Assembly: GCA_003023725.1 (NCBI GenBank)
Contig: PXYT01000004.1
Coordinates: forward strand, 62,001 to 126,000
Source of the DNA: Sulfobacillus benefaciens
GTDB lineage: Bacteria > Bacillota > Sulfobacillia > Sulfobacillales > Sulfobacillaceae
DNA length: 64,000 nucleotides
Direction: 5' to 3'
The notes below the pieces were generated by a model. The model saw only the letters and a list, made by a program, of their open reading frames with translations. It was not told the DNA's origin and made no database searches. Position 1 is the stretch's first letter. Every line of letters begins with the position of its first letter. Position numbers and translations under genes: made by a program. This document shows positions 34,043-55,714 of the stretch, one piece after another.

Positions 34043-34693
34043 GTGTCCCCGGAACAAATTCCTTTGCTACAGGATATCCCTGGTGCCGCACTCGAAAAAT
34101 GGACACTTACACGTTCTTACCGGGCCGGCAACATTATTTTTCGTCAGGGAGAAACCACCAGTGGTCTGTGGGTCGTGCTGCAAGGACAAATTGCCGTAGA
34201 ACGCTTAGGACCCGACGGCCATATTTTTGCGACTGGAATCTGGTTGCCGGGAGACATTATCGGCATTGCCGGTTTGTGGGATGACAGTCCGTATCCCGCG
34301 ACAGCACGGGCAATGACAACACCTACGGAAGTCTTGTGGATGTCTCGCGAACATGTTCTTGTCGCTCAGCGAGAAATCCCCCTCTTTGGTATTGCCATGT
34401 GCAAAACTCTTGCGCAACGGTTGCGTTTGGTTCAAGAATCAGCGGCAGACACCAGAGGCCGTCCTGTGATTGCTCAGGTGGCGGGAGTATTGGCGATTTT
34501 AGCGGAACGCATGGGCCCCAGCATCAGCTTAACTCATGAGGAACTGGCTCGCATGCTGGGCGTCCAACGCGAAACCATTACCCGATCCTTGCACACCCTC
34601 GTCAAAGAACACATTATAAGCAGTGGACACGGAACCGTTCGCGTCCATGATATTGATGAGCTAAAGGAATGGATAACAAAAGCTATATATTAG
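34043..34693 (+). CDS. Crp/Fnr-family transcription regulator
   Basis: 216 residues. N-terminal cyclic-nucleotide-binding-like beta roll (RAGNIIFRQGETTSGLWVVL, GDIIGIAGLWDDSPYPATA), long dimer helix, then a winged helix with LTHEELARMLGVQRETITRSL as recognition region. No N-terminal Cys cluster, so it does not sense oxygen through an Fe-S cluster as Fnr does; it could bind a small ligand or heme. GTG start with AAAGGAT eight bases before. A perfect TGTGA-N6-TCACA box lies 129 bases after its stop, in front of a DUF2249 gene, and two similar boxes occur near related genes, making this protein the obvious candidate regulator. Confidence 0.92.
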   Translation: MSPEQIPLLQDIPGAALEKWTLTRSYRAGNIIFRQGETTSGLWVVLQGQIAVERLGPDGHIFATGIWLPGDIIGIAGLWDDSPYPATARAMTTPTEVLWMSREHVLVAQREIPLFGIAMCKTLAQRLRLVQESAADTRGRPVIAQVAGVLAILAERMGPSISLTHEELARMLGVQRETITRSLHTLVKEHIISSGHGTVRVHDIDELKEWITKAIY

Positions 34694-34821
34694 TTAGCAG
34701 GGTTTATAGTATAGCAACCATCTTCGAAGCTTTAAAGTGATTGCTCACCCCTGTGCATCATCCGGGAAATGCACATGTTATATTTTTCAGTCTCTCTCTT
34801 GGAGATATCCTCCGATTCTCG

Positions 34822-34864
34822 TGTGATCAGACTCACAATACGGATCAGGACATCCTAGTATGAT
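34822..34864 (+). promoter_or_regulatory. Crp/Fnr-type box and -10 element upstream of the DUF2249 gene
   Basis: TGTGATCAGACTCACA (34822-34837) is a perfect TGTGA-N6-TCACA operator. The -10 TATGAT (34859-34864) predicts a start near 34871, placing the box centre at about -41.5, the class II activator position. The leader would be about 270 bases. Confidence 0.72.
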
Positions 34865-35143
34865 TGAATGTGTCCGTAAGGACGGTACCGATATCCCTTT
34901 TTCTCACTGGACGATACGAAATTCGGGATGGGGAACTGTTGTCCAAAATAAACGGCGTGGGGGATGTTGGGACCTTCGCACCAGAAACGTTCTCCACGAA
35001 GCGTCAACAGCATAGTTTAGTCACAATTCCCACCGTTATGCTGCAAAGAGCAGAATCCCGGTTATCAGAGACAAAGATAACTCTGAATCAACAATCTATG
35101 ATCCCAAAATTATGACTCAAAAAGTTCTTAGGAGGCCTATAAA

Positions 35144-35368
35144 ATGAAACAGTTGGATGTCCGCCCCATCCTCAACAACGGCGGAGAACCTTTCGACGAC
35201 ATTATGAAATTCGTTAGCGAACTGACCCCAGGAGAGAGCTTCGAACTCTTGGCCACCTTTCGACCCGATCCGCTACTGCAAATCTTGAAAGTTCAGGGCT
35301 TAGAAGGCAAAGCCACTGAACGGGGGCCGAATTTCTGGTCTGTCATATTCTCCCCCACGAACGATTAA
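35144..35368 (+). CDS. DUF2249 protein (single domain)
   Basis: 74 residues. Starts KQLDVRPILNNGGEPFDDI, then ELTPGESFELLATFRPDPL and the terminal WSVIFSP strand, the SirA/TusA-like fold pattern of DUF2249. Strongly similar in layout to the first half of the tandem DUF2249 protein at 48858-49355 (EL-PG-S...F-P-PL). AGGAGG ten bases before the ATG. The family is often found near denitrification, nitric-oxide or hemerythrin genes, but its biochemical function is unknown. Downstream of a Crp/Fnr box. Confidence 0.82.
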   Translation: MKQLDVRPILNNGGEPFDDIMKFVSELTPGESFELLATFRPDPLLQILKVQGLEGKATERGPNFWSVIFSPTND

Positions 35369-35369
35369 C

Positions 35370-35622
35370 GCTTGCCGACCACCCCGGCCGGAACCCGAGG
35401 AAATCTTCCGACTCCATCGGTGACGAGCCCGTGTGGCGCCGTTCAGTCGGTGCGGGCTTTTAGGCGCTTCTCCAGCCTGAAACTCCGGGCCTCCCATTCA
35501 ACCCAGCTCGGGGAAGAGCGAGCCGTGTGGGAGGTGTTTCCGATCCGGCTGAACTCGGACGAGGAGAGATTACCATCAGAAAGGGTCACGCCGTTTACGG
35601 GGAATAACCTGGAGGAATTTTT
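35370..35622 (+). ncRNA. Possible omega RNA upstream of the IscB relic
   Basis: IscB proteins use a guide RNA encoded immediately 5' of iscB. This 250-base GC-rich interval between the DUF2249 stop and the iscB relic carries no gene and has complementary runs, for example GAGCCCGTG..CGGTGCGGGCTTT (35427-35461). Position fits; fold not verified. Confidence 0.4.
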
Positions 35623-36580
35623 ATGGTCTTGGTGTTCGATCCACACAAAAACCCTTTGATGCCGTGTACGAAATAACGTGCTCGGCAGTTATTGATGCAA
35701 GGACCCGCGGTGATTCATACGCGGAATTCCTTGACCATTCGACTGAAAGATCGCACAGTCCATACTTCGATCCGGCAACCCTTGCGCGTAAAGTTTGATG
35801 CCAGCAGCAAGACCACCGGAGTTACCATCATCTTGAAGAGGGCCACAGACCCCCAAGTCCTCTCTTTGCGAAGCACAGGGCACACTGAACGGGCATCAAG
35901 GCCCGGCTCTGTGCGCCCTGTGGACTCTAACGAGAGCTGGGGTCCCGAAAACCCTCCACCGACAGACGACCCCAAACCAACTTTACCGGAACCAACACTC
36001 AACACAATCCTCAAACTGCAAGAACGTGGGGAGCGGGAAGCACCCCACCCGACAGTCACGCTTGAAAGCAATGGGGCAGCCATAAACACGACACCGTGGC
36101 GCTCTACCAGACACCCCAAGCCACCGGTCCGATCTGTCCGTAGAGAAAAATACCGCGCACAAAGGGCGGCTTCCCCTCAGAGCCTTAGTATGACGCCTTG
36201 TGTGTCCGGGCAAAAGTGCACCGGAGCATTGCCGGCTTACGTGAATGACTGAACAGCCAAAGGCTACGAAACCTGGCCGAAGGGCGGGAGTCAGCACGCG
36301 CGAATTCCTCATTCACGGTTGGAGCCGGCACAAACAACACAGGGGAATTTCAGACCGGAGAGCTCATCAAAGCTGACACCCTTCATGGTAAAGGAGCCGA
36401 AATTTGGATAGGACGCGTGACATCCACGCCGATAGTCAGTTTGTCGTCGCCACAGCGAACTGCAAAACAATCAAGGTGCGTCACTCTTATTCCATGTCGC
36501 GTGCTTCAACGTCAAAGAGGTTGGCTTGAGCGATTAAAGAGGGTATCTCGCCCTCCTCCCCTCGCAGCTTATTGCCAGTG
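35623..36580 (+). pseudogene. Decayed IscB-like RNA-guided nuclease
   Basis: ATG 35623, with GGAGG seven bases upstream, opens MVLVFDPHKNPLMPC, then a TAA at 35674 interrupts CTK*RARQLLMQG; IscB has an uninterrupted CxxxRARxLL there. The frame continues SLTIRLKDRTV and QPLRVKFDASSKTTG, the RRXRR/RuvC-I start with its Asp. The middle, including the HNH domain, is missing or unreadable. Near the end, NTTPW and, one frame over, ALYQTPQATG (36099-36128) match the IscB NATRWALYxxLKxTG segment; FQTGELIKADTLHGKGAE then GRV (36348-36420) and CRVLQRQRGW (~36500) match the C-terminal domain. About 400 bases shorter than a full iscB. A relic with a stop, frameshifts and an internal deletion. Confidence 0.82.
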
Positions 36581-36727
36581 ATGCTGCAATCGTCTAGAAT
36601 AAAGAACATTTATGGGCAGAAGGACATTCAGGACCGGGGTGCCGGATCCAGATGACATCGAGAGAAAAAAAGGAATGCGTAATCAGGGCTCTAAAAATTT
36701 CCGGTTCCAGCCACAAGGATGATAAAG

Positions 36728-37903
36728 ATGGTAATGTGGTTATCCTTAATCGGATTAATTGGGGGCGGGCTTGTCGTCAACCGTTTGCTTAATAGGTGGT
36801 CTCTTCCCGATGTGCCAGTCTACCTGTTCCTGGGTGTGGCATTGGGACCAGCGCTCGGCTTAATTCGCGTGCCTTCCACCTCTCCACTGACGCTGAACAT
36901 TTTGCCCATAGCCGCTGGAGTGATTCTTTTCGAAGGTGGCGCAGGTATCCCTTTTGACGGGCTGCGCCGAATGTGGCCCAGCATCATGTCACTGGCCACC
37001 TTAGGAGTTCTCCTCGCTTCCTCATTCATGGCCGTATCTCTCCATTGGATTTGGAACTTGCCCTGGTCACTGGCTGCCATGAGTGCCATTGTCATCGCCA
37101 ATACCGACCCAGCCAGTGTCATACCCGTACTCTCTCGTCTTTCCATACCTCAGTCAATCCGGATCACCATGGAAGCCGAGTCAGCCTTCAACGATACTAT
37201 GAGTGCGCTCACAACCTCCATTCTCATGGCCGTTTTGAATTCTCACTTTTCTAGGACCGTCGTTCTCGAGCAATCTTTCAGGCAGATCTTCTTGGGACTC
37301 TTGCTTGGCCTGAGTGTGGGATATGCGATGGGAACCCTCGCCCGAAAGAACCCCGGGTTAAGCATCTGGACGGAAATAACGGCGGCGTTTGTTCCCTATC
37401 TGTTGGCAGTGGAATTGGGTTCAAACGGCTATGTGGCCGCCTTTACTGCAGGGCTGTCGTGGCGCTTTCGCCATTACTTCCCCTCCCCCACTCTGCTCGT
37501 AAGCCGTATAAGCACCCTGGCCCGCATTACCGTCTTTACTTGGCTGGGTCTGATTATGCCAATCGCGGTGTTAAGGACTCACTGGCCGTTAGCTCTGGGG
37601 GTTCCTTTTATTCTCATGTTTGCAGCCCGTCCGTTAACGGTCATCGGTTCCGTGGGATGGATCAGACAATGGCATCCCAAAGAACGGCTATTTATGATGT
37701 GGGTCCGGGAGACAGGCGCCATTTCCGCTGTTCTGGCCGTCCAAACCGGAACCCTTTTCCCTCAATGGAGGCCCCTGATTTGGGCTATTGTCTTCAGTAG
37801 CATTCTTGTTACCGTAGGAATACAGGCTCCGAGTAGCAGATTTCTAGCAAGAATTTTGGGGTTCGCTAGTGCACAAAAGGAAAAAATGCCGGAACGAGAA
37901 TAA
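36728..37903 (+). CDS. Cation/proton antiporter, CPA1 type
   Basis: 391 residues and about twelve hydrophobic segments. VPVYLFLGVALGPALGLI and ILFEGGAGI at the N-terminus, IVIANTDPASVIPVLSRL with the paired polar/acidic residues of the ion-binding helix, and AESAFNDTMSA (ND motif) are typical of CPA1/NhaP exchangers; MWVRETGAISAV near the end matches the conserved RGxxG-like region. Exchanges Na+ or K+ for H+, plausible for pH homeostasis in an acidophile. The ATG at 36728 is nine bases after AAGG. Ends 38 bases inside the convergent SLC13 gene. Confidence 0.88.
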   Translation: MVMWLSLIGLIGGGLVVNRLLNRWSLPDVPVYLFLGVALGPALGLIRVPSTSPLTLNILPIAAGVILFEGGAGIPFDGLRRMWPSIMSLATLGVLLASSFMAVSLHWIWNLPWSLAAMSAIVIANTDPASVIPVLSRLSIPQSIRITMEAESAFNDTMSALTTSILMAVLNSHFSRTVVLEQSFRQIFLGLLLGLSVGYAMGTLARKNPGLSIWTEITAAFVPYLLAVELGSNGYVAAFTAGLSWRFRHYFPSPTLLVSRISTLARITVFTWLGLIMPIAVLRTHWPLALGVPFILMFAARPLTVIGSVGWIRQWHPKERLFMMWVRETGAISAVLAVQTGTLFPQWRPLIWAIVFSSILVTVGIQAPSSRFLARILGFASAQKEKMPERE

Positions 37904-39647
37904 CCGTCAATACAAACATGACAATAGTAAACGGAACGCCAATACGAAAGAAGTCCTGATACCGGTAGCGCCCGGGTCCCATAGCCATAATAAATACTTT
38001 GTTGGCCAAAGGCGTGATTGGCGCTGCCGACAACGCAATCACCATGGAAATAATCAGACCGTCAGGAGACCAATGATTGGCTCCTGCCACCGAAATGGCC
38101 AGAGGCGCTAAAACCAGTGCCGCCGCCACGTTGCTAATCACCTGAGTCAGAAAAGCCGCGAGCCAGAAAAATACCGCCAAAATCGCATAGGGCCCTAAGG
38201 GACCCACAACACGAATCAACGTATGAGAAATTTCCGCACTCACACCCAAACGGGTCAGGGCCAAACTTAATGGGGTGATCCCCCCTACCAGCGTGATAAT
38301 GCGCCAGTCGATCGCTCGATACGCATGGTTCATAGAAATAATCCGGGTCATCAACAGTACCAAAATGCCTACCGCAGCGGCAGCCTGAATGGCAAGGAAA
38401 TTCACTGCAGCAGCCACTAACACACCTAATACCACTAAACCCGCAATCACACTCCGTCTGGGGCTGGCGGATACGGCGTGTTCTACATCCGCAAATACCG
38501 TTAAATCGTCGGCCATCTGCAACCTGGCTATGGCATCATCGGTTCCCGTTACCAGAAGCACATCCCCAGCCCGCAGAGGAGTGACAGGCAATTCCCGAAT
38601 ACGGGTCACACCCTGACGCAAAATAGCTAAAACGGTGGCTCCGTATTTGGTACGGAAATTGGTGCCGCGAAGGGTATGACTAACTAGAGGGGACCGAGGC
38701 GGAATCATGGCTTCCACTACACGGATATTGTCTCGCCTGAGCTTCATGGTGCTGGGATCCGTACCCACCACTTCCATCCCGAATTCCGGCTGTAGGTCCA
38801 AAATGGCCTGTACATCTCCTTGAACAACCAAACGATCCCCGGCACGAATGGTATCATTGGCTCCAGGAGTCAAAATATGCCCATTTGCCCGGATAATTCG
38901 CAAAACCGTCAAATGGTGCTGCCGGAAATAACCGACTTCTCGCAGCGATCGATCCACCAACGTTGAATCATCGTTGACCCGCACTTCGCTGATATAGCTT
39001 TTCACTTCCTGATAATTGCTGAGGAACTCGCTTTGACCATTACTTGCCGGCAGATGGCGAATGCCCCACAACTTCATAAACATAAAGCCGGCCAGAACGA
39101 GAATAATCCCCAAGGGGGTAATGCCAAAAAGAGGAATCGGCGCATAATGACTACTGGCCAGTGCCGCATTGCCGATAATGTTTCCGGCTGACCCAATCAT
39201 ACTGAGAAGTCCGCCCAAAGCAATGGAAAAGGCTAAAGGCATCAGCAACCTGTGAAGAGAAATTTTCAAACTTTGCCGGATTCGCATCATTGTCGGTAAA
39301 AAAATGCTCATGAGACCCACATCGGAGATAAAGGTGGATGGAATCGGCGGTAATGCCATCAGTGCAGTTAGCAAAGCCGGTTCTCCCCGTCTGCCAATCT
39401 TTTCAAACATGCCAGCCATAACATCTGTGGCTCCTGAACGCCGAAGCCCTTCGCCCAAAATAAACATTTCGGCCAAAATAATCGCCGCGTAAGAACTGAA
39501 TCCGCTAAAAAGGCTATGAATCGGCACCAAATGAAACAATCCGACTAAGGCTAACGAGACTACTCCTGCGACATCGATCCGCACGCGTCCTGAGACCAGA
39601 AGCACCATAACCAGAAACAAAATACCGATAACCAGAACCTCGGCCAT
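37866..39647 (-). CDS. SLC13/DASS-type permease with two TrkA-C domains
   Basis: 593 residues. Two membrane halves flank a central cytoplasmic region with two RCK-C (TrkA-C) modules: VGYFRQHHLTVLRIIRANG..GDRLVVQG and YGATVLAILRQGVTRI..GDVLLVTG. The N-terminal half has PPIPSTFISDVGLMSIFLP and GSAGNIIGNAAL, the C-terminal half SNVAAALVLAPLA and SAAPITPLANKVF, the substrate loops of divalent anion/sodium symporters. Such RCK-containing forms carry sulfate, citrate or dicarboxylates. ATG at 39647 follows GAGGGGGG by five bases; the upstream start at 39668 is discarded. Convergent, overlapping the antiporter gene by 38 bases. Confidence 0.88.
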   Translation of the reverse strand: MAEVLVIGILFLVMVLLVSGRVRIDVAGVVSLALVGLFHLVPIHSLFSGFSSYAAIILAEMFILGEGLRRSGATDVMAGMFEKIGRRGEPALLTALMALPPIPSTFISDVGLMSIFLPTMMRIRQSLKISLHRLLMPLAFSIALGGLLSMIGSAGNIIGNAALASSHYAPIPLFGITPLGIILVLAGFMFMKLWGIRHLPASNGQSEFLSNYQEVKSYISEVRVNDDSTLVDRSLREVGYFRQHHLTVLRIIRANGHILTPGANDTIRAGDRLVVQGDVQAILDLQPEFGMEVVGTDPSTMKLRRDNIRVVEAMIPPRSPLVSHTLRGTNFRTKYGATVLAILRQGVTRIRELPVTPLRAGDVLLVTGTDDAIARLQMADDLTVFADVEHAVSASPRRSVIAGLVVLGVLVAAAVNFLAIQAAAAVGILVLLMTRIISMNHAYRAIDWRIITLVGGITPLSLALTRLGVSAEISHTLIRVVGPLGPYAILAVFFWLAAFLTQVISNVAAALVLAPLAISVAGANHWSPDGLIISMVIALSAAPITPLANKVFIMAMGPGRYRYQDFFRIGVPFTIVMFVLTVILVPAFFPFVH

Positions 39648-40272
39648 AGAGGCCCCCCTCATATCCACTTTACGCCCATGGTAACCTGCCTCGACACAAA
39701 AAGTCCACGAAGTCGGGGACCAGGAGCTCGTGAAAATTTCATAAATTTTTCCCCGGGACTACCTTACCCTCAATATGGTGTTTCATCACACAGCTGGGGC
39801 TGTTGCTCGTCTTAAAGTGTCTCACATAATTCGATAAATAACGGATTGTTATAGGGAACCGGATAATAAGGGGGGTCACGCTCGAGCACACGTTCGTCGC
39901 TCATGCGTAGCCACCCGTGATTTGGTGTGCCACCAAATGGTCCATTCCCAAGTCCTGCCAGTTATGTGACATTCCCATCTGGATGCCTCCGGCGAAGCTG
40001 ATCGCGCGTGATCTCAGGATGACATGGTCCGGACCCTACGTGAGGTCGGGAGACGATGAGACCTGCTGTCCTGCGATCCTGTAAAGTTTGATGCAGTTCT
40101 TCCAAGAATTTTTGACCTGCATGTGGTTGCCGGGGGTTCATCATAAGAACTTTGGCAACGTTTTGGATGTAGCGCCGGTTGTTAACCTTATCTATAATCA
40201 CATCGCGATTACGCCCTTAACGGCTAACTCCGAAAGGTCCACCATGCAAGGAACGTCAGTTTAGCACTCGGG
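39648..40272. other. Gap with one possibly broken small gene
   Basis: Holds the interrupted frame at 39812-40201; the remaining ~160 bases next to the SLC13 start show nothing. Confidence 0.5.
39812..40201 (-). pseudogene. Small unknown gene with in-frame stop
   Basis: Reads MIIDKVNNRRYIQNVAKVL.. for 79 residues to a TAA at 39962-39964, then continues open in the same frame with ..GPFGGTPNHGWLRMSDERV and DPPYYPVPYNNPLFIELCETL to TAA at 39812. Both halves look protein-like and lie 71 bases downstream of the unknown gene at 40273-41211, in the same direction. Either one gene broken by a single stop or two short frames. Family not recognised. Confidence 0.35.
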
Positions 40273-41211
40273 TTAACCATGATCTTCTGTATGCACCCAC
40301 GGCGGATTATCGGAAGTTGCTCCTTGGTCGTAAGCAGCTTTGGCTTGCACTTGCCCCAGGTCCTGCTCTTCCATCGGAGTAATCAACCCCACTTCGATAA
40401 AGGTTTCCCTGTCATCCACTAAGTGAAGATTCTGCGCGGTTTCGAAAAAGGCGGGGTCATCTTGCGCAATGCGATACGGATATTCGGCTCCCGGAAAGCG
40501 TGGATCGACAATCTCTAGCCACCAGTGCTCACGCGATCCTTGGAGCTTCCAATGCCAAGTGTCCTGAAAATGTGGCTGACGAGGATGTAACCGATCCCGT
40601 GACGGCAACCGGGGATTCACTTTCCGCCACGGTACCCGATTCTCGTGTTGGCGTGCACGGAGGCAATCGTACAACAACTCTAGAAATTGGTTTTTGGCCA
40701 TCACAGGTTGAGCGTCATACGATGGGTCATGGAAGACTAGACGGCCGGCCCAGGGATTAAAGAATTCTCCACGTTGGGCCCAATCGGGATTCGCTGCAGC
40801 CTCGTGCTGTCCCAACTCCTGGGCATCCATAGCCGTTACCAGCACCCCGACAAATTCCGCAATGCGTTGGGATGTCGTCATGCCTAACTCACGGGCCCAC
40901 GGAAAGAAATTATGCATGGCGTCCAACTGATAGAGGCGGCCTTGGATGGGTTGCCGATGATCGCAGATCTGCAAAAACCAAAAGACCCTATCTCCTAAAA
41001 CTGTCCACTCCCACGACTTGGACGGCCACCGTTCCCCAGGGATTTCGTCCTTTGAGTCTTCGAATCGCACCCGCACTTCCCCCAGGCAGCCTGCATTCAA
41101 AATCGCATCGTACAACTCCCTTACAAACTCTGTGTCGTTCACCCTATCACATCCGTCCGTCTGAACCGATTTCGCGCTTAAGCGTTCATTTTCATCCATC
41201 AGGGTCATCAT
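40273..41211 (-). CDS. Unknown protein with internal tandem duplication
   Basis: 312 residues, soluble, Trp-rich, no family recognised. The two halves match: FVRELYDAILNAG..SWEWTVLGDRVFWFLQICD against FLELLYDCLRARQ..TWHWKLQGSREHWWLEIVD, followed in both by an R-Y/P stretch, then AMDAQELGQHEAAA against PMEEQDLGQVQAKAA. So the gene arose by duplication of a ~150-residue unit. ATG at 41211 (a second ATG immediately follows); the gene overlaps the end of a short transposase-like HTH frame by 20 bases and no good ribosome binding site is visible, so translation may be coupled to it. Unknown function. Confidence 0.7.
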   Translation of the reverse strand: MMTLMDENERLSAKSVQTDGCDRVNDTEFVRELYDAILNAGCLGEVRVRFEDSKDEIPGERWPSKSWEWTVLGDRVFWFLQICDHRQPIQGRLYQLDAMHNFFPWARELGMTTSQRIAEFVGVLVTAMDAQELGQHEAAANPDWAQRGEFFNPWAGRLVFHDPSYDAQPVMAKNQFLELLYDCLRARQHENRVPWRKVNPRLPSRDRLHPRQPHFQDTWHWKLQGSREHWWLEIVDPRFPGAEYPYRIAQDDPAFFETAQNLHLVDDRETFIEVGLITPMEEQDLGQVQAKAAYDQGATSDNPPWVHTEDHG

Positions 41212-41359
41212 GATGAGGGGTTTTCACCGTCTCTCGCACCCACCATCGCACCATGCTCGGCCTGATCTGATGACGCCGGGCCACCAAGGTGGCATGGTGC
41301 GTGTCTTGGGCTTCTTGTACTATCTGCTGTTCGAATTCGCCGGAATACGTTTGACTCAT
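41192..41359 (-). CDS. Short IS3/IS911-type transposase OrfA-like HTH fragment
   Basis: 55 residues from ATG 41359: MSQTYSGEFEQQIVQEAQD, then ATLVARRHQIRPSMVRWWVRE, the standard helix-turn-helix start of IS3-family OrfA (YSxEFKxxIV..NATxVARRHxLxPxxVxxW). It ends about 45 residues earlier than a full OrfA and has neither OrfB nor inverted repeats nearby. Overlaps the start of the next gene by 20 bases. Either a transposase remnant or an HTH co-opted as a small DNA-binding protein. Confidence 0.6.
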   Translation of the reverse strand: MSQTYSGEFEQQIVQEAQDTHHATLVARRHQIRPSMVRWWVRETVKTPHHDDPDG

Positions 41360-41507
41360 TCGTTCTTCTCTCTTCTTTTTATACTCAGTGTTAGCCTACC
41401 AGGAGAGATGGCGATTGTCATGTTTTCTTAGGGAGCTTAAAAGGGAGTACATGCAGACGGATTAAAAGCGTGAGGAACAGCGGCCTGCCTGTACCTTTGT
41501 CCCGACT

Positions 41508-42576: not shown

Positions 42577-43485
42577 GTGCCAAACGTGAAAGATTCCTTG
42601 AAACCCCGAAACAAGAAAAAGAACAGCCGAGTTGGCGCAATTGTGCGTATTGCTGTGGCGGTAATAGCCGTGGGCATAGTGGCGACCGTGTTTTCTCAAC
42701 AACTTCACGGTCTCGTTGCATCTCCCAAGTCCAATAAACCGGCAGTCAAAAAAAAGAAACCGACCAAGCCCCAGCCTTTGCCGCAACAAATCTTATTACC
42801 CGTGACACCCCAAGCCCAAAATCCCCAACTTCCCAACGGGGCTGAAGTGACCACCTTGTCTATGCTGTTTTCGGCGGTACACCACCCCGTAAGCAAAATG
42901 GTTCTCGCAAAAAAAATCCATGTGGATCCGACCAAAGAAGTAATCAAACACTATACCACGTCATCTGGTAAAAGCGTGTATCAAATCACTCAATGGGGTG
43001 ATCCAAATATGGGCTACGTAGGCAACATGTACAACGCCGGTAAAGGATACGGTGTTTACCACGGTCCCCTACTGGCTCTGCTTAACAAGGTGTGGCCAAA
43101 ACACGGGATAGATCTCACCGGTCACTCGTTTTCCAGTCTCTTGGCATCTGTGGGGCGGCGCAGGCCGGTAGAAATCTGGACCACGCTAAACTTTCAGCCT
43201 ACAAAGTTCTGGATTTCCTGGTTGAGTCCTGAAGGAAAATTTATAGGAACCCCGGAAGAAAACGCTGCTCTCATCGTAGGCTACAACAAACCCAAAGGTT
43301 TAGTCTATGTCGACAACCCTGGAACCGGTACGTTGCAGAAGGTCCCTCTCACCCCATTGGAACAGTCGTGGAAACAACTGGGAAGTCAGGCTATTACCGT
43401 AAATGCCACGGTTCCCGTGCCGAAGCCCCCTGCGAAATCCAAACCGGCGAAAGGCACACATTCCTCAAAATCGGGGAAGGGTTAA
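42577..43485 (+). CDS. C39-like peptidase homologue lacking catalytic residues (pseudoenzyme)
   Basis: 302 residues. Signal anchor IVRIAVAVIAVGIVATVF, a Lys/Pro linker, then a C39_2 papain-like domain. It is a clear paralog of the protein at 43643-44554 (LPNGAEVTTLSML against LANGCEVTSLSML; GKGYGVYHGPLL against GYGYGIYNGPMM; PVEIWTTLNFQPT against PVEVWTTLTFKPT). The catalytic Cys is Ala89 and the catalytic His is Asn229 (PEENAALIVGYN against LEHAVIIVGYS), so it should not cleave peptides. The coding frame is intact over 300 codons with its own promoter, so it is probably functional as a binding or decoy protein. GTG at 42586 is an alternative start. Lys/Ser-rich tail. Confidence 0.85.
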   Translation: MPNVKDSLKPRNKKKNSRVGAIVRIAVAVIAVGIVATVFSQQLHGLVASPKSNKPAVKKKKPTKPQPLPQQILLPVTPQAQNPQLPNGAEVTTLSMLFSAVHHPVSKMVLAKKIHVDPTKEVIKHYTTSSGKSVYQITQWGDPNMGYVGNMYNAGKGYGVYHGPLLALLNKVWPKHGIDLTGHSFSSLLASVGRRRPVEIWTTLNFQPTKFWISWLSPEGKFIGTPEENAALIVGYNKPKGLVYVDNPGTGTLQKVPLTPLEQSWKQLGSQAITVNATVPVPKPPAKSKPAKGTHSSKSGKG

Positions 43486-43554
43486 CGGACGCCCTCTGGC
43501 AAGACGCACACCAGATATATAGATATGATATCCCGTATTAGGGAAGAGAAAAAT

Positions 43555-43607
43555 AAAAAAGACGGAGCCTAGAGGGTCCCGAACCCATCCAAAGGCTCCA
43601 TCTTTTT
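43555..43607. terminator. Bidirectional terminator between the two C39-like genes
   Basis: AAAAAGACGGAGCCT (43556-43570) pairs with AGGCTCCATCTTTTT (43593-43607) with one mismatch, with A/T runs on both outer sides. Confidence 0.8.
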
Positions 43608-43642
43608 GTACTCCTTGAGTAGCTTCTTTATGTTAAAGCCTT

Positions 43643-44554
43643 TTAGGATGTCGTTTTCGATGAAGCCTTAACGGTTATGGCCTGATCCCCCAACTGGTTC
43701 CAAGCGGCAATAAAGGGAGCTTTGGCCACCTTTTCTCCTGCCTGGCCGGTCCAAGGGTTATTGATATACAAATAGTTCGGGCTGTATCCCACAATAATCA
43801 CGGCATGCTCCAGCGGCGTGGCATGCACCGGCCCTTGGGGGCTATTCCATGTAACCCAATCGTTGGTCGGTTTAAACGTCAATGTGGTCCAGACTTCAAC
43901 TGGCACTCCTTGCGCCACATGTGCCAAAATGGCGGAAAAAGGCTTGCCGGTCAAATTAACAGCGCGTCCCGGCCACACTTCATTCAACAACTTCATCATG
44001 GGCCCGTTATAAATACCATACCCATACCCCGCTTTATAGACACTGCCTACAAATCCCACATTGGGATTCCCCCACACCTCGACTTTGTTCACCGTTTGAC
44101 CCTTAGCATTAGTCGTTTGCGTGAGCTGAAGAGGGGTATGAGCCTTTGGCATTTCCTTTGCTAAAGTCAGTTTACTCACGGGATGACCAACCCCCGTCAG
44201 CAACATCGAGAGGGATGTTACCTCACAACCATTGGCCAGTTGCGGAAACTGGGACTGAGCCGGGACATGCATTAGGTAAGATGACGGAATCGCTTGGGGA
44301 TGTTCTGCAGGCTTCACAGCTGGCGACTTGGCCGCGCTTGATTTGTCTACACGCGCTTTGGGATTGGTTGAAGTCTTAGTTTGGGTCAGTTGGTTCAGTC
44401 CCAGCTGCCCTCCCACATAAGCGGAGATAGATCCACGGTGCATGGCCACGGCACCTGCCAGTCCTCCCACGACACCCACGGTTAAAATCAGGCGAGGCCA
44501 ACTCACCTGGCGCTTCGTTATTCTGCCCTTCGCTGACACTCTGTTCCACCTCAC
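43643..44554 (-). CDS. Membrane-anchored C39 family peptidase
   Basis: 303 residues. N-terminal membrane anchor (LILTVGVVGGLAGAVAM), Ser/Lys/Pro linker, then the C39_2 (papain-like) domain with catalytic Cys110 in LANGCEVTSLSMLL, His250 in LEHAVIIVGYS and an Asn265 in YINNPWTG. Similar to Bacillus YvpB-like extracytoplasmic proteins of unknown substrate. GTG start at 44554 overlaps the asnB stop (GTGA), so it is translated together with asnB. Convergent to its inactive paralog. Confidence 0.85.
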   Translation of the reverse strand: MRWNRVSAKGRITKRQVSWPRLILTVGVVGGLAGAVAMHRGSISAYVGGQLGLNQLTQTKTSTNPKARVDKSSAAKSPAVKPAEHPQAIPSSYLMHVPAQSQFPQLANGCEVTSLSMLLTGVGHPVSKLTLAKEMPKAHTPLQLTQTTNAKGQTVNKVEVWGNPNVGFVGSVYKAGYGYGIYNGPMMKLLNEVWPGRAVNLTGKPFSAILAHVAQGVPVEVWTTLTFKPTNDWVTWNSPQGPVHATPLEHAVIIVGYSPNYLYINNPWTGQAGEKVAKAPFIAAWNQLGDQAITVKASSKTTS

Positions 44555-48340: not shown

Positions 48341-48857
48341 TGTCATTCTCCCAACAAACCAGTCTTCTGATTCCCGTGGAGTGGGCCAGATATAGTATAC
48401 AAATCTCTCGGCTTATACGGCTCCTGGGAACCCTGGGATCCCTCCGCCTGCTGCCGAATCGGGCCCAGCCCCTCCGGCCGAAGGTTGGTTCCGCCACTCG
48501 TCGAACTCGCCCATTCCCTTCGCGGCGCGACGCGCCTTTTCGGGAAGAAGGCCGTATTACGCGCAAATATTGTCGCCTGCACCCATCCATTTTACGCCAG
48601 TGCCGCAAGTTTTCTGAACAATATCCAGGTAAAACTGGAATTAACTGCCATTTGGATTGTTATGCAAACTCGCGAACCGCACCTAGAATCTCTTTAGAAA
48701 CGGAATAATGACCTCAACCCAGTCCGGATTCATCAAATCTGGTCCACCTCTTCTGTGGGACTTTGAACAGCCTCGGAGAGACGATTTTCGGCCTTTTTGC
48801 ATTCTCAAAGCCCACACCACTGTCCAAACCGCTTCTTATCGGCAGAAAAGTCCGGTT
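48341..48857. other. Gap with a GC-rich stretch
   Basis: 48420-48560 is GC-rich and carries many short complements (e.g. GGGAACCCTGGGATCCC) but matches no RNA class I know and codes for nothing recognisable. Confidence 0.4.
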
Positions 48858-49355
48858 TTAATGCGTTTTGAGAATGCGAACAATGGCGGAGTCGTCAGGT
48901 TGAGCAGCGGTTTCATAAGGATATCCCTCATCGTCTAGCTGTCCCAGCAGAAAGACAGGGACCCGGTCATTGTGAATCACCACCACGGTGCCTATATCCA
49001 CTTCTTCCAGTTTGCGCAGAGTTCTCTGCATGGGTTCTGGAGGCACTAGGCCCCGGTTGTCCAGGAATTCCTCTGGGCCTTGAATAGGAGTGTCAGCTCT
49101 GAGAGATGGCTGACCTTCTTCCGTTCCCCTTGCCTCACCGGGAGTAAATGTGGTCACAATCGTCCGCCCCACTTTTTCCTGATGCACAGAATACCCCCGG
49201 CGCCGCATTTGGGACACCAGAGGCCGGGGATTGAACGTCGACTTGATGATCAAGCTCTGACCCGGCCGCAACTCATTGACTGTATCCATCATATGAGTAA
49301 ATAGCGACAATCCTTGTCTCAAGACACTCTTAACCTCAACCACAACAGGTTCCAT
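48858..49355 (-). CDS. Tandem DUF2249 protein
   Basis: 165 residues. First domain VVVEVKSVLRQGLSLFTHM..ELRPGQSLIIKSTFNPRPLV..TTFTPGE, second domain after a polar linker: LDNRGLVPPEPMQRTLRKL and VVVIHNDRVPVFLLGQLDD. Both follow the SirA/TusA-like DUF2249 pattern; the first is close to the single-domain protein at 35144-35368. GGAGGGG lies 8 bases before the ATG. Transcribed from a promoter with a Crp/Fnr box and divergent to the first CcoN/NnrS-like gene. Confidence 0.82.
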   Translation of the reverse strand: MEPVVVEVKSVLRQGLSLFTHMMDTVNELRPGQSLIIKSTFNPRPLVSQMRRRGYSVHQEKVGRTIVTTFTPGEARGTEEGQPSLRADTPIQGPEEFLDNRGLVPPEPMQRTLRKLEEVDIGTVVVIHNDRVPVFLLGQLDDEGYPYETAAQPDDSAIVRILKTH

Positions 49356-49730
49356 GATTTCTACCCCTCCATAACATCCCGTGTCTACACAGACTGACTC
49401 GGTATCCTTATGCGACCAGTGTAACCATATCTTTCACGCCAGCACTGTGATGTGGATCACGGCCTTAGGCAAAAAGACTTGTCGAACCTGGCCACAGCAT
49501 TGGACATTTTTCGCCTCATACCACCACTAAAACCACTCCAATGCCGGGTCTCCTCGCACGACGACGCAAGACGCCGACAAAGATCCACCATTTCCCGAGA
49601 AGGCCACTCTATTATCTTGGCGGGAAAGCAAAACCTGTGATCAGAAACACAGTACAACCCACTTGGGGATATCATACTGACCAAGGTATTGTAAACAGTG
49701 TATGAAGAAAGATCTCGAGGCGACAACATC
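49356..49730. other. Divergent intergenic region between DUF2249x2 and the first CcoN/NnrS-like gene
   Basis: Contains the Crp/Fnr box; a minus frame at 49457-49732 overlaps it but lacks a ribosome binding site. Confidence 0.5.
49418..49461 (-). promoter_or_regulatory. Crp/Fnr-type box and -10 for the tandem DUF2249 gene
   Basis: TGTGATGTGGATCACG (49446-49461) matches TGTGA-N6-TCACA at 9 of 10 positions. On the minus strand TACACT (49418-49423) is a weak -10; a start near 49411 puts the box centre at about -42. Confidence 0.55.
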
Positions 49731-51032
49731 ATGGATAGCGATACAATGCGGGCCCAGTCTGCACACTATAAACCCACCATCAACATCAATCAGGCGCCAC
49801 CCTTGGCGGGGCCTGCTTTGTTCTTGATTTCGGCATGGATTAGTCTCATGTTGGCCGCAGAACGCACTATCACCGATCCCCAACAATGGCGCAACGCCCG
49901 TCTGGGTTCTGACGGAACCTTAATCACGGTTCATCTGGTGACGCTAGGCTTTTTGACAATGACCATGTTTGGCATCTTGTACCAATGGATTCCGGTTGTT
50001 TTCGATAGGCCTCCGGTCCCCCTTAAACTCATCATCATCCATTGGTTCCTATACAGCGCAGGACTGGGACTGTTTCTTTTGGGATTCTCCTCCGGTCGAG
50101 GAACCTTGTTGGCGGCCGGGGCTTCCGTCCTGGCACTTAGCATTGTCGTTTTCACCTCATTTATGGGCAAACGTTTGGTACAGTCGTCACGCAAGGCCGA
50201 TGCCCTGACTTTTTCTTTGATCATTGCACTTGCCGCGATCAATGCCACCTGGATATTCGGACTCAGTATGGCCCTGGGTATGGCAGGAATTACGGCTTAC
50301 CCAAACGTGCTGAGCGAACACTTAAACACAGCATGGGCCGGATGGATTGTCATGCTGGTCCTTGCCGTGCAAGTCAAGTTGCTGCCCATGTTCTCCATGG
50401 CGCGCATGGACAGCCTTCGCCCGGGTCTTCCCATTGGGTTGGCAGCCGGGGGATTAATCATGCAATATGTGGCCGCTGCGCGTCCAGCTCTCGAACTGTT
50501 GCCCGTTCTTTTCTGGCTCGCGGCAGGGATCACCGTGTTATGGCAATTACATATGTTGTGGCACCATCGTCAAAGTCCGAATCGCGACGGCGTTTTTGCT
50601 GGTGTCATCCTCGGATGGATTCTGTGGATCGGCGCTGCCATCGCTCTTCTGCTTCATCCAGAGTTGAGCATTTTCCTGGTAGCTTTGGGGGCGATAACGT
50701 TTATATTCAGTTATCAGTCCCGCATCATCCCGTTCTTGATTGCCCTGTTTGTCGGCCGCAGACTTCCTGGACCCGTATTCAAGACGTTTTTCATGGCGCA
50801 GCGCTTCAATTCACCCATGCTGCCCGTGATCAGCGCCGTTTGGTCTTTGGCCCTGAGTGCCGCCTGGATTGGGGGAATCCAAGCCCGTAATCCCGGATTG
50901 CTTGAATGGGCTGGCGTGTTGTTGTTCTTATGGCCCGTGTATCATGCCCTCTTCATCGTTCAGCGTATTCTTCATGCGGCTAAAGCGGCCCGACGCCCCC
51001 AGGAAGGAAACGCCAACAAAAACCATGACTAG
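49731..51032 (+). CDS. CcoN/NnrS-like multi-helix membrane protein, paralog 1
   Basis: 433 residues with about twelve hydrophobic helices. TVHLVTLGFLTMTMFGILYQWIPVV carries a conserved His and the GxxYQ-P motif found in heme-copper-oxidase-like and NnrS proteins; a second conserved His lies in the SEHLNTAWAGWIVMLVL helix, and YQSRIIPFLIALF comes late. Two conserved helix histidines suggest heme or metal binding. No full oxidase ligand set (six His) is present, so it is not a working oxidase. Start ATG 49731 with GAGG ten bases upstream; 49746 is an alternative. Overlaps paralog 2 by eight bases. Confidence 0.72.
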   Translation: MDSDTMRAQSAHYKPTININQAPPLAGPALFLISAWISLMLAAERTITDPQQWRNARLGSDGTLITVHLVTLGFLTMTMFGILYQWIPVVFDRPPVPLKLIIIHWFLYSAGLGLFLLGFSSGRGTLLAAGASVLALSIVVFTSFMGKRLVQSSRKADALTFSLIIALAAINATWIFGLSMALGMAGITAYPNVLSEHLNTAWAGWIVMLVLAVQVKLLPMFSMARMDSLRPGLPIGLAAGGLIMQYVAAARPALELLPVLFWLAAGITVLWQLHMLWHHRQSPNRDGVFAGVILGWILWIGAAIALLLHPELSIFLVALGAITFIFSYQSRIIPFLIALFVGRRLPGPVFKTFFMAQRFNSPMLPVISAVWSLALSAAWIGGIQARNPGLLEWAGVLLFLWPVYHALFIVQRILHAAKAARRPQEGNANKNHD

Positions 51033-52356
51033 AAATCGTCGTCGGAAACGGAACACACACGACTTTGGGCGCCAGCACCCTGAAAATACGGCCAGTCTGG
51101 TTGTTCCGCCGTTGTTCCTTCTTACGGCTCAACTAGGATGGTTGGCCTCTCTTTTCCTGTTAACCCGGCACCCGTCGGCTCTCCTTCGGGAACAATGGTC
51201 CCAAGGCTTCCTGCTAGCCGTCGTCCACCTCTTTACGCTTGGATTCCTGACCATGACCATGATGGGCATATTACACCAGCTGGTTCCCGTCACTCTCAAC
51301 ACCAAGCCGTGGAGCACACGCATCGTGATCGTCCACTATGGGCTCATGGTCACAGGCACCATACTGTTCAGCGCGGGATTCGTGAATGAGCAACCCTTAT
51401 TCATTATGGTAGGCGCTATTGCGATTTCTCTGGCCATCCTCTATTTTGTGGCACTGATCCTCTACGCCCTGCGTCATGCTCAGGGCCATCCCTTTCATGG
51501 CCCTTTTATCCTGTCGTCGATGGGATATTTAGCCTTGACGGTCGTACTGGGCGTCACCCTGGCATGGAACTATGTATATGGTCTCGGCCTGGCGTCCTCG
51601 TTCATCGTCGCTCATATTGCCGTGGCCGCAGGAGGATTTGCCGCTTTTCTTTTGATGGGACTAAGTTATAAACTCTCGGTCATGTTTTTCCCGTCTAAAA
51701 GCGCTCCAAGACACGGTACCTGGGTCTTTTATCTCCTTCATGCCGCCGTTCTAACGGAATTCCTTGCAGGATTCACGGGCTGGCATCTCGTCACTGCAGG
51801 AATTGCCATTTTCACGACCGCTTCCGGCTTGTACCTCTGGGATATGATAGACATCTGGCTCATGCGGCGCAATTCCTATCCCGATCCGGTTCTTTTTACC
51901 ATTGGCCTAGGCACCTTGTCTTTTGCCGCCGCATGGATTCTTTTGGGGCTGTGGGCCCTGTCCCCATCAAACTCGCATCTTGCCTCAGCCGCTATTTTTA
52001 TGTTTTTTGAGGGATGGTTCGGGCTTTCAATTCTCGGCTACAGTCAAAAAATCTTGCCTTTTGTCCTCTGGCTTCACCGCTACTCCCATGTGCATGGACA
52101 AGGCAAAGTCCCTCGGCTCAACGAAATTTTTCCGGAGGATTGGTCTTGGCAAATTATGATGTTGTCGGCAGCAGGACTCGTATTATCCTGTGGGGGACTA
52201 ATTCTTTCATCGGTGTCCATGTTTCGCACTGGTCTGATAACCTTGTCTCTCGGAGTAGCACGGATGCATTTCGCGTCCTGGCGTGCTCTGTTACGCCACC
52301 CCGTCCATCAAGACAACCCTAAGAGAGATTTTCGCACCCGGATCCGCAACTGGTAG
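51025..52356 (+). CDS. CcoN/NnrS-like multi-helix membrane protein, paralog 2
   Basis: 443 residues. VHLFTLGFLTMTMMGILHQ then LVPV repeats the first-motif His, the second in SFIVAHIAVAAGGFAAFLL, and YSQKILPFVLWLHRYSHVH near the end adds further His. The ATG at 51025 lies inside the end of paralog 1 (eight-base overlap), with AGGAAGGAAA upstream; longer frames run through that gene and are discarded. Probably cotranscribed and perhaps complexed with paralog 1. Confidence 0.72.
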   Translation: MTRNRRRKRNTHDFGRQHPENTASLVVPPLFLLTAQLGWLASLFLLTRHPSALLREQWSQGFLLAVVHLFTLGFLTMTMMGILHQLVPVTLNTKPWSTRIVIVHYGLMVTGTILFSAGFVNEQPLFIMVGAIAISLAILYFVALILYALRHAQGHPFHGPFILSSMGYLALTVVLGVTLAWNYVYGLGLASSFIVAHIAVAAGGFAAFLLMGLSYKLSVMFFPSKSAPRHGTWVFYLLHAAVLTEFLAGFTGWHLVTAGIAIFTTASGLYLWDMIDIWLMRRNSYPDPVLFTIGLGTLSFAAAWILLGLWALSPSNSHLASAAIFMFFEGWFGLSILGYSQKILPFVLWLHRYSHVHGQGKVPRLNEIFPEDWSWQIMMLSAAGLVLSCGGLILSSVSMFRTGLITLSLGVARMHFASWRALLRHPVHQDNPKRDFRTRIRNW

Positions 52357-52450
52357 TTGACCCGATGAAACGAAGAGAGAACAGAATCGAAGCCACAGCA
52401 CTGTCTGCTGTGGCCACGTTGTGGAAAGTTGTCCATTTCGATACCGTCTC

Positions 52451-53338
52451 TTACGAGAATGGGACAGTTTTCGTCGACCGGGCCTGACGGGCAGCGTGAT
52501 ACGACGTGCGAACCAACGGACCTGATTCAACATGGAGAAATCCGCGGGCCATACCCTCTTCCCGCAACTTTTGAAATTCCTCGGGAGTATAAAAACGGGC
52601 AACGGGCATTTGTTTCGAGGTCGGCCGCAAATACTGGCCGATGGTCACAATATCCACCTCGGCAGCCCGCAAGTCGTCCAGGGTTTCTAAAATCTCTTCC
52701 CAGGTTTCTCCAACTCCCAGCATAATGCTGGATTTTGTGGCCTGGTCGCGGCGAATGCCCTTGGCGTTACGCAAAAGCTCCAAAGACCTGTCATACGTTG
52801 CGCGTGAACGGACACGAGGGGTCAAGCGCCGCACCGTCTCGACATTGTGGTCCAACAATTCGGGACGAGCCTCAATAACTTGTTCCAACGCCTGACGATC
52901 TCCTTGGAAATCGGGTATAAGCACTTCTACCTGACAGCGAGGCGACAGACGTCTTACGGCTTCGATGGTCAGGCGGAAGAGGGTGGATCCCCCGTCGGGC
53001 ACATCATCTCTGTCCACACTGGTAATGACAACATGATCCAAGCCCATTTTTTGAACTGTCTGCGCCACGCGTTCAGGTTCCTCCCAGTCTAAGAAACCCG
53101 GATGGCCACTCTTCACCGCACAAAATCGGCAGTTGCGGGTGCATGTGTCACCCAGGATCATAAAGGTGGCAGTCTTGTCCTGTTCCCAGCACTCATAGAT
53201 ATTGGGACAATGAGCTTCTTCACAAACCGTATGAAGCTGCTCTCCACGCATCATCACTTTTAACCGCTGATAGTTGGGTCCCAGGGTCGCCTTCACTTTT
53301 AGCCACTGGGGTTTTTCCAACTCCTGTTTATCCGTCAT
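52451..53338 (-). CDS. lipA: Lipoyl synthase
   Basis: 295 residues. CEEAHCPNIYECW supplies the auxiliary 4Fe-4S cluster cysteines, CTRNCRFC the radical-SAM cluster, and the C-terminal GPLVRTSYHA the Ser/Arg end of the family. Inserts two sulfurs into protein-bound octanoyl groups of pyruvate and oxoglutarate dehydrogenases and GcvH. ATG 53338 follows AAGGGTG by six bases; the GTG at 53347 is part of the same frame. Placed between the membrane paralogs without obvious functional link. Confidence 0.96.
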   Translation of the reverse strand: MTDKQELEKPQWLKVKATLGPNYQRLKVMMRGEQLHTVCEEAHCPNIYECWEQDKTATFMILGDTCTRNCRFCAVKSGHPGFLDWEEPERVAQTVQKMGLDHVVITSVDRDDVPDGGSTLFRLTIEAVRRLSPRCQVEVLIPDFQGDRQALEQVIEARPELLDHNVETVRRLTPRVRSRATYDRSLELLRNAKGIRRDQATKSSIMLGVGETWEEILETLDDLRAAEVDIVTIGQYLRPTSKQMPVARFYTPEEFQKLREEGMARGFLHVESGPLVRTSYHAARQARSTKTVPFS

Positions 53339-53678
53339 CCGTATCACCCTTATCTATATTGTCATACACGGCAAGCACATATTACCACCTAGGCTGTTCT
53401 GACTTTCGTTCAGGCGCCTGCATGCATCCGAAATTCGATTGCTTATCCCCTCCTCCTCGTTCGCCATCTCCCCACAAATTCCGCTCTTACTCCATAATCA
53501 TTAATCAAACAATAAGCGACAATCCCGCCTTTTTAGCAGGATTGTTCCCTTTTCAGTTTTTTACAATTATTGACGAATGTTACTTGTCACCTATCATCAC
53601 GACTCACTGGCCACTTGCCTGGTCTTATCACTTTTCCCTTAAGCTGGACTCGACCTCAGACTTGTTCGCGACAAATTC
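53339..53678. other. Gap between lipA and paralog 3
   Basis: No gene. Contains the hairpin at 53519-53545. Confidence 0.5.
53519..53545 (-). terminator. Probable terminator of paralog 3
   Basis: ACAATCCCGC (53519-53528) and GCAGGATTGT (53536-53545) pair with one mismatch. It lies 134 bases beyond the minus-strand stop of paralog 3. A T-rich run follows on the plus strand, so direction is uncertain. Confidence 0.45.
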
Positions 53679-55025
53679 TTAGTGAGTCGGAATACGCCAA
53701 GGTGCTCGATCCTGACTTTTCGTCTTTTGTTCCGGTTGCGCTCCCAAGGCGGTGGCCGGAGAGTGAGCTGCACGATATAACGCACGAGCAATATCAATGG
53801 TTGCAAGAAAGGCTGCAGCCATCGCCAAACGAAAACCCGGGAACCACCCAGTCAAAAGGAACCCCGTGGCCAAAATGATCGCGATAAAATACACGATATA
53901 AGCATAATGGTCTCTCAACTCATTGACAAGGTCCTGAACTCTAGGGGTTTTCTGTTTTCCCATACGGGATCCAAATCGGTTTATCCAGGCTAAAAACGGA
54001 ATGATTTTGTACAACTGCGTTAAGGCCATTCCCCCCAACCAACCGTACAGTGCCAAAAAAACAAGTGCCACATCGAGCCGGCTGCGGGACGAGTCAAATA
54101 ACACGTTCAAGGATCCAACAATCAAAACCGCGAGAATCATCAGCGGTATAACCCCGTAGCGCGCATTAAGCTCAAGATGACGGCGCTTTCTTTGCTGATA
54201 CAGTCTCCTCATGTCAAGGAGATACATACTCAGGCCCGCCAAAGTCACAAACCACCCAATATTGGCCGGAATATTAAGTCCCGCCCATCGACACACCCAT
54301 GTTTCGGTAATCCCCACGGCCGCGGCGATATAGGCAATCCATCCCAACAGGCCCCGATGTTCGTCAGACAGCGTGAACATCGCTAAGAGTTTGTAGCTAA
54401 CACCCATGACTGTCAGAGTCAGCCATCCAATCACTCCGCCGACGATATGGGATTCCAGCCCCCTGTTTCCTATCACCATAAGCTGGGATTGTGTGAACAA
54501 CTGCGGTACAGTCAAAGACAAGGCGAGCACCAGTCCCGCCAGAACTGTCACTACTAAGTAGAAAAGTCCGCTCGCCACCAGCCACGCCGGCAATTGCCAC
54601 GGCCACGCCCTTTTGAGTGTCACTCCAAGATTGATAGCGGCTATGACGGCACCGGCCACGACAAGTGCCCCTCCGGCCGGCAATAACCATGTGTTCTCCG
54701 CGATAACGCCTCCAGGCAACGCCAGGAATCCTAAAACCATTCCGGCTAACCCCACCACAATACTCCCCAGGCTCACCCCGGACCATCCTTGACTGGCTAG
54801 TTCGGTTTTGGTCAGAACGGGAACAAACTGATGCAGGGCCCCCATTATAATCACCGTCAAAAAACCGATAGTCGTCAAGTGAACTCCCGCCAAAACCCAT
54901 GGGTTCCCCAAATGTTGAAGGGGATTGCCTAGTCCCGAAGCCCACAATAATTCTGCCAATAACAATGACACGATCGCCACGGTGAAATAACTCATACTCC
55001 ACCGTGATAAGCGTACTCCATGCAT
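53679..55025 (-). CDS. CcoN/NnrS-like multi-helix membrane protein, paralog 3
   Basis: 448 residues, about twelve helices. VHLTTIGFLTVIIMGALHQF then VPV and SHIVGGVIGWLTLTVMGVSY keep both conserved His helices of paralogs 1 and 2, and TQLYKIIPFLAWINRF matches their late motif. Ends with a polar Gln/Lys tail. AGGGAG eight bases upstream of ATG 55025. Its leader is ~330 bases, headed by a perfect Crp/Fnr box, suggesting control with the DUF2249 genes. Confidence 0.75.
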   Translation of the reverse strand: MHGVRLSRWSMSYFTVAIVSLLLAELLWASGLGNPLQHLGNPWVLAGVHLTTIGFLTVIIMGALHQFVPVLTKTELASQGWSGVSLGSIVVGLAGMVLGFLALPGGVIAENTWLLPAGGALVVAGAVIAAINLGVTLKRAWPWQLPAWLVASGLFYLVVTVLAGLVLALSLTVPQLFTQSQLMVIGNRGLESHIVGGVIGWLTLTVMGVSYKLLAMFTLSDEHRGLLGWIAYIAAAVGITETWVCRWAGLNIPANIGWFVTLAGLSMYLLDMRRLYQQRKRRHLELNARYGVIPLMILAVLIVGSLNVLFDSSRSRLDVALVFLALYGWLGGMALTQLYKIIPFLAWINRFGSRMGKQKTPRVQDLVNELRDHYAYIVYFIAIILATGFLLTGWFPGFRLAMAAAFLATIDIARALYRAAHSPATALGAQPEQKTKSQDRAPWRIPTH

Positions 55026-55714
55026 AGCTCATTCTCCCTATTCGATATTTTTCCCGCCATACGTCCAGGCATTCTTAAATAAGCCATGTTCCATGTTGCC
55101 AACTCTTTCTCCAAACCTGTACGGCTTTTCCCTGCAGCATTCACACGGATCCTCGTTGCACGTGGTTGCGCACCTTGCGAATCATTCGCATGTTCCGCAT
55201 ACAAAACGTGTCCAAACATCTTTTGTATCTGCGATCTCCGTATGAGTGCCGCGAGATGTTCGACTGACCGGCGAGTACCTGGTTCATACTTTCAAAACCG
55301 TGCCAAATCCACCGTTGCACCGATTTTTCCTGTTTTTCGCTTATATTTTTTCCTCTATCAAGAGTACAATGTGGCGCTGGAGCACAATGTGATAGCGATC
55401 ACACGGTCTTCGTCGATCGGATTCCGCACAAATCGATCGTGAGCAGACAAGGTTGTCACAACTTCCTTTGACCACCTTCAAACTTGTCTGTCGCATGAGA
55501 AGGGACATTCATTCATCTGGCATCTAGCGAGTTCTGTATGCAACAAGCTTTAACAAGCAAAGTTCGTGGGTAATAATATGATCATGATATTCCCACACAG
55601 CAAGAAGGGGCTTTCGAATTTTTCTCCGGTCTTTCTCTTGCTGTCTTTTGCTATCATGAATGGGAAACGCGTTTGCATTCTCAAAATTCTGACGTAAGGA
55701 TGGCGAGGACATCA
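55026..55714. other. Divergent region between paralog 3 and MaoC-like gene
   Basis: No gene; holds the Crp/Fnr box at 55388-55403. Confidence 0.55.
55363..55403 (-). promoter_or_regulatory. Crp/Fnr-type box and possible -10 for paralog 3
   Basis: TGTGATAGCGATCACA (55388-55403) is a perfect TGTGA-N6-TCACA operator. Minus-strand TGTACT (55363-55368) could be a -10, with a start near 55356, box centre about -40. The plus-strand MaoC-like gene is an alternative target. Confidence 0.6.

Follow-up and report, generated by a model that had tools for sequence, protein, structure and literature searches.

Four putative operator boxes lie in the analysed stretch of 64,000 nucleotides (hereafter the window), which comes from a 4.56 Mb genome of the Sulfobacillaceae, and they probably belong to a single Crp/Fnr regulon that works through class II promoters and takes in DUF2249 genes, genes for membrane proteins and hemerythrin genes, together with nar genes in relatives. 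The protein encoded at 34043-34693 would bind the boxes as operators, its dimer reading GTGA half-sites through a CRP-like RETxxR recognition helix, and at the promoters of the DUF2249 and membrane genes it would sit at -41.5 and activate by class II contact with RNA polymerase. Such a regulon would unite the DUF2249 proteins, three membrane proteins stripped of most metal ligands (memA to memC) and hemerythrin-type di-iron proteins, and would extend to the nar nitrate reductase operon in those relatives that possess one. The products are most likely accessory, protective or repair factors of nitrogen-oxide metabolism, with roles in handling NO and in protecting or rebuilding iron-sulfur centres. 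This reading draws on the conservation of boxes and -10 elements, on gene sets and on a predicted fold, the relatives compared being Sulfobacillus genomes and Bacillota MAGs.

The genes verified in the window are a predicted Crp/Fnr-family activator gene (34043-34693, + strand), a single-domain DUF2249 gene of 74 aa (35144-35368, + strand, with AGGAGG upstream), a tandem DUF2249 gene of 165 aa (48858-49355, - strand), memA (49731-51032, + strand) and its paralog memB (51025-52356, + strand, its start codon uncertain with the frame open from 50857), which together occupy 49731-52356, and the third paralog memC (53679-55025, - strand). A sequence-only reading of this DNA named three TGTGA-N6-TCACA boxes, and all three stand as written: predicted operator box 1 in the promoter of the single DUF2249 gene (34822-34837, TGTGATCAGACTCACA) and box 3 in that of memC (55388-55403, - strand TGTGATCGCTATCACA) are exact, and box 2, in the tandem DUF2249 promoter (49446-49461, - strand CGTGATCCACATCACA), has one mismatch. 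The count was nevertheless too low, as a predicted fourth box at 49636-49651 (TGTGATCAGAAACACA) had been missed; it precedes the + strand membrane gene at 49731, memA, which is divergent from the tandem DUF2249 gene, and is conserved in three same-genus relatives (L013, L014 and L030). The Crp/Fnr gene said to adjoin the first box is indeed present. Box 1 was also considered as a control site of the crp gene itself and rejected; it stands downstream of crp and therefore serves DUF2249.

The same reading had put the box centres about 40-42 bases away from plausible start codons and had argued from this for class II spacing. These starts do not hold, the real ones being at 35144, 49355 and 55025, which puts the box centre 314 bp from the start of the single DUF2249 gene, 98 bp from that of the tandem gene and about 370 bp from that of memC, and the ATG at 34860, ~30 bp beyond the midpoint of box 1, falls within a predicted -10 hexamer. 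Class II spacing is counted from the transcription start and not from the start codon, and so counted from the predicted transcription starts the proposed spacing survives, although the argument that led to it was wrong. The predicted -10 hexamers are TATGAT for the single DUF2249 gene (34859-34864, + strand, with the box centre at -41.5), TACACT for the tandem gene (49418-49423, - strand, one base beyond the consensus spacing), CATACT for memA (49673-49678, + strand) and TACTCT for memC (55361-55366, - strand). CRP-family proteins can also repress, and a regulator that mainly represses these promoters is conceivable; it is an improbable reading, as the box centre lies at -41.5 and a conserved -35 hexamer is lacking, which is how activator promoters are arranged.

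Homologs of the tandem DUF2249 gene are present in most of 34 family genomes, and a box of the form GTGATC-N3-RTCACA, typically ~100 bp from the start codon, precedes them in 22 of 26 family promoters, the rows of this footprint having been picked by the core GTGA[CT]-N5-TCAC and coming from related, hence non-independent, genomes. Outside what the row selection dictates are the C that follows GTGAT, the R in front of TCAC, an ATG past the box and a conserved TAnaCT hexamer, whose first base is 29.5 from the box centre and which therefore places the box at -41.5. At least two of the four boxless exceptions sit directly behind another gene, one straight after a single-domain DUF2249 gene (L035) and the other after a membrane gene (L036). 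The same offset emerges from a separate set of 48 further boxes, which were picked by eye near regulon genes with -10 spacing playing no part (single DUF2249, memA, memC, a small gene, thiol peroxidase, methyltransferase and nar) and in which matches to TATAAT peak at this position with a mean of 3.38 of 6 against a typical 1.5; three boxes of the window belong to this set. It is thus by the conserved -10 position in two sets of boxes, with transcription starts that are predicted, that these promoters are placed with class II CRP-type promoters, whose box lies near -41.5. When the leaders of DUF2249 and memC are aligned with those of relatives (two of them in the case of box 1), box and -10 are kept and the surroundings have diverged. 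On this comparative evidence the boxes would appear to be real, functional control sites. In one relative (L269, G003:C212, about 3174-3700) the tandem DUF2249 frame is broken, yet a box and a -10-like hexamer still precede it.

A chance frequency of the motif in the genome had been named as a refuting outcome. Genome-wide, exact boxes are enriched, 11 being found where the reversed motif has 2, but at up to two mismatches the window has no enrichment, with 24 sites against 26 expected. Two of the 11 exact boxes fall in these 64 kb. Several of the 11 resemble sites of the regulator Rex (TTGTGAA-N6-TTCACAA), and counting is therefore weak evidence, for which reason comparison was used instead; the bare TGTGA-N6-TCACA was likewise rejected as a definition of the regulon, as it catches Rex-like sites too and so mixes regulators. 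The Rex-like exact boxes include L002, L005 and L010 (C2:62788, C64:103999 and C134:71418), with flanks TTGTGA...TCACA, and one of them stands before a cytochrome bd oxidase-like gene. From the flat count in the window and from such Rex-like boxes it could be argued that the boxes are chance occurrences or are bound by a different regulator, for instance Rex, and that the grouping of genes is a coincidence. This would seem very unlikely, given that boxes and -10 elements persist whilst their flanks diverge, that motifs are enriched over reversed controls and that the boxes of the window carry GTGAT and have none of the TT...AA flanks of Rex sites.

In comparison with reversed patterns, the core motif is found 104 times against 3 in 638 kb of family loci (which partly overlap), and a composite pattern, made up of the core box and TANNNT at the -41.5-type spacing, gives 147 sites against 26 in 34 genomes. 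The simpler GTGAT-N4-ATCAC has 11 sites in the window's own genome, 8 of them in or near unrelated genes and mostly inside frames. A blind search of this genome with the composite pattern returned six sites, five of which are ahead of regulon-type genes, namely the single DUF2249 gene, memC, a third DUF2249 gene on contig C93, a small gene on the same contig whose homologs precede DUF2249-crp in relatives, and a hemerythrin gene on C70. The sixth, on C148, falls within a reading frame in phage-like DNA and was taken as chance. On C97 an exact box stands ahead of genes for a hemerythrin and a methyltransferase whose homologs are boxed in relatives, but no -10 was found at the class II distance from it. 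Three genomes (G004, G011 and G012) are without the Crp gene, the tandem DUF2249 gene and every composite site, and in two others (G006 and G031) composite sites are kept and the Crp gene was not detected, perhaps owing to assembly gaps.

The candidate regulator is the sole protein with a cNMP-binding domain (PF00027) found in the genome, and it belongs to the Crp/Fnr superfamily by both of its domains (PF00027 at 63.1 bits and PF13545 at 56 bits, each over its cut-off). Aligned with E. coli CRP it has the same type of recognition helix, RETxxR, which would fit GTGA half-sites. It does not have the GE...RSA pocket of a cAMP-responsive CRP, the corresponding stretch being GDIIGIAGLWDDSPYPATAR, conserved in orthologs as GLWDxSxYPxxA[RK], and the NCBIfam CRP model gives 43.4 bits against a cut-off of 266; nor does it have the cysteines of the FNR 4Fe-4S cluster, as its one cysteine is unconserved in orthologs. 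The half-site GTGAT and the helix RETxxR would also set it apart from the NnrR/DNR subgroup, whose half-sites are of the TTGAT or TTGcg type. The signal sensed is probably low oxygen, nitrogen oxides or both, and with FNR cysteines and cAMP-pocket residues absent it would be sensed by a chemistry of another kind. In many relatives the Crp gene lies inside the DUF2249 cluster, and the regulator looks to be lineage-specific, because its best match outside the family is 34% identical (in a sample of 299 genomes of the phylum) and a plasmid search with the protein gave relatives of only about 30%.

A connection with nitrogen oxides comes from those relatives that carry narG. Of 16 loci that could be assessed there, 10 clearly and 2 probably have a regulon box upstream of an HHE-narGHJI or narK-HHE-nar operon, as read from gene maps in which moaA and the nar subunits other than narG were named from their sequence. 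These nar promoters do not have the -41.5 arrangement, and several have a -10-like element ~19 bp further down, which suggests that they may be of class I. In relatives, boxes also stand ahead of a thiol peroxidase gene and of a methyltransferase gene that neighbours moaA. The window's own genome yielded no narG above the cut-off and the nitrate link there is therefore indirect; amongst older Sulfobacillus genomes nar has been reported in only one (PMC4378227). Across the genomes compared, presence of narG and of the tandem DUF2249 gene are weakly associated (Fisher p 0.12), and the DUF2249/mem module persists in about nine relatives that have no narG, besides the window's own genome. This persistence is what would be anticipated if the regulator were a general low-oxygen switch of the Fnr/ArcR type, with the DUF2249 and mem proteins serving microaerobic respiration or redox balance rather than nitrogen oxides, and the box of Bacillus Fnr/ArcR is also TGTGA-N6-TCACA. 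We regard such a switch as possible but on the whole unlikely, since the box is also found ahead of nar in related genomes, relatives of DUF2249 and memC occur in denitrification clusters, and the Fnr cysteine motif is absent.

The membrane proteins were described in the sequence-only reading as CcoN/NnrS-like, and their tie to DUF2249 in one regulon that responds to redox state or nitrogen oxides is supported by the footprints, the sole Crp/Fnr protein, the nar boxes and the fold. The model of memA (pLDDT 93) has 12 helices and the fold of heme-copper oxidase subunit I, matching NO reductase (cNOR; Z 30.9, rmsd 3.0, 361 residues) and cbb3 oxidase (Z 30.1, rmsd 3.6, 375 residues) over nearly its full length. 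By helix order two histidine positions are shared with these enzymes, H68 in TM2 and H197 in TM6, and they are the only invariant histidines of memA homologs, the same two recurring across all 39 paralogs. A catalytic heme-copper oxidase or NO reductase has six histidine ligands, some of them supplied by TM7 and TM10; because neither of these helices has an invariant histidine, it can be inferred from helix order that a canonical binuclear centre cannot form. No protein of the window matches the NnrS family (PF05940), memA compared directly to an annotated NnrS gave no match, and a PDB sequence search using the membrane protein alignment likewise found none. NnrS/COX1 models are matched weakly and only in some relatives, PF05940 by 8 of 39 with a best E of 5e-4. 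Homologs of memB share a His-rich WLHRYxHVHGxGKxPRL just past helix 10 (52075-52095, residues 351-357), which is not in memA or memC and might be a metal site.

The DUF2249 proteins are assigned by profile, the two of the window scoring 50.2 bits (the single-domain protein, E 2.4e-13) and 79.8 bits, and the third copy 68.9 bits, against a PF10006 cut-off of 29.5. The second domain of the tandem protein, whose model (pLDDT 80) is less certain than that of memA, has the fold of the TusA/SirA sulfur carriers (Z 12.0, rmsd 1.7 over 74 residues, and Z 11.7, rmsd 1.9 over 71 residues, against TusA-type proteins), but the cysteine that carries sulfur in TusA is replaced by proline in DUF2249, within a PPEPM found in all aligned members.

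We take COG4309 to be the DUF2249 family. COG4309 was placed in the NnrR/NsrR denitrification regulons in 2005 (PMC1274295), and the claim that the present regulon is uncharacterised is therefore only half true. In the NnrR/DNR/NsrR regulons of Proteobacteria, as here, Crp/Fnr proteins (NnrR and DNR) control denitrification genes, COG4309 is a member, often with norB, and heme-copper-like NnrS genes are included (PMC1274295). NnrR however reads half-sites TTGcg-N4-cgCAA, unlike the CRP-like GTGATC-N4-TCAC of the Sulfobacillaceae, whose regulator forms a lineage of its own; genes of the nor and nir types were not observed next to the boxes. The DnrS/DnrT, DrpA/DrpB nitrate-respiration circuit of Thermus thermophilus likewise has a DnrT-dependent member of the DUF2249 family, DrpA, beside nar (PMC6282519), but the Sulfobacillaceae set also includes a tandem DUF2249 gene and genes for heme-copper-fold membrane proteins. 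DUF2249 is also induced in denitrifying haloarchaea (PMC11218638).

Rhizobial denitrification clusters (Mesorhizobium pB2-1-1 and Agrobacterium pAtCFBP5877a) resemble the Sulfobacillaceae set in holding DUF2249, NnrS and Crp/Fnr genes together, and that on the Mesorhizobium plasmid encodes a protein 36% identical to memC, with DUF2249, an iron-sulfur assembly factor, Crp/Fnr, pseudoazurin and NnrS as its neighbours; they differ in also having nos-type or nor/nirK genes and in belonging to a host of another phylum. An iron-sulfur assembly gene follows memC in one of the relatives (L107). A memC-like gene also adjoins a tandem DUF2249-like gene in a Burkholderiales MAG (L114, 8612-10480), so that the pair exists outside the Bacillota.

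We judge the regulon to be a variant among the known Crp/Fnr nitrogen-oxide regulons. What appears to be new, as far as sequence comparison can tell, is the regulator of the Sulfobacillaceae with its operator and the geometry of its promoters, the control shared with oxidase-fold membrane proteins and nar, and the persistence without nar. A bolder proposal can be put forward only tentatively, that a Crp/Fnr sensor confined to this lineage and equipped with a new ligand pocket, GLWDxSxYPxxA[RK], runs a stand-alone response to nitrosative or iron-sulfur damage in acidophiles, in which the stripped oxidase-fold proteins and the cysteine-less, TusA-like DUF2249 proteins would form a new membrane machine for NO handling or metal-centre repair that is kept without nitrate respiration. 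DUF2249 and oxidase-like proteins with no catalytic centre recur, with no assigned function, in bacterial and archaeal denitrification clusters, and what they do together can be put to the test in a small regulon for which there are a single candidate regulator, a defined operator and an identifiable set of genes. Sulfobacillus matters for bioleaching and for acid mine drainage, and the regulon may name candidate genes for its response to nitrogen oxides or to lack of oxygen.

Finally, some further features of the window may be recorded. Unusually long 5' leaders of about 270-330 nt run from the predicted transcription starts to DUF2249 (34865-35143) and to memC (55026-55360, the ~330 nt leader that follows box 3), and they differ in length and sequence among relatives; Rfam gave no match to a known RNA anywhere in the window, these leaders included. 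The gene at 32298-33524 is a weak relative of long-chain acyl-ACP reductase and PigE (under the family cut-offs), adjoins a formate dehydrogenase alpha gene and is kept beside crp in same-genus relatives. At 42577-44554 two secreted-type paralogs lie face to face beside an asparagine-synthase-like gene, and this block is also kept in relatives.
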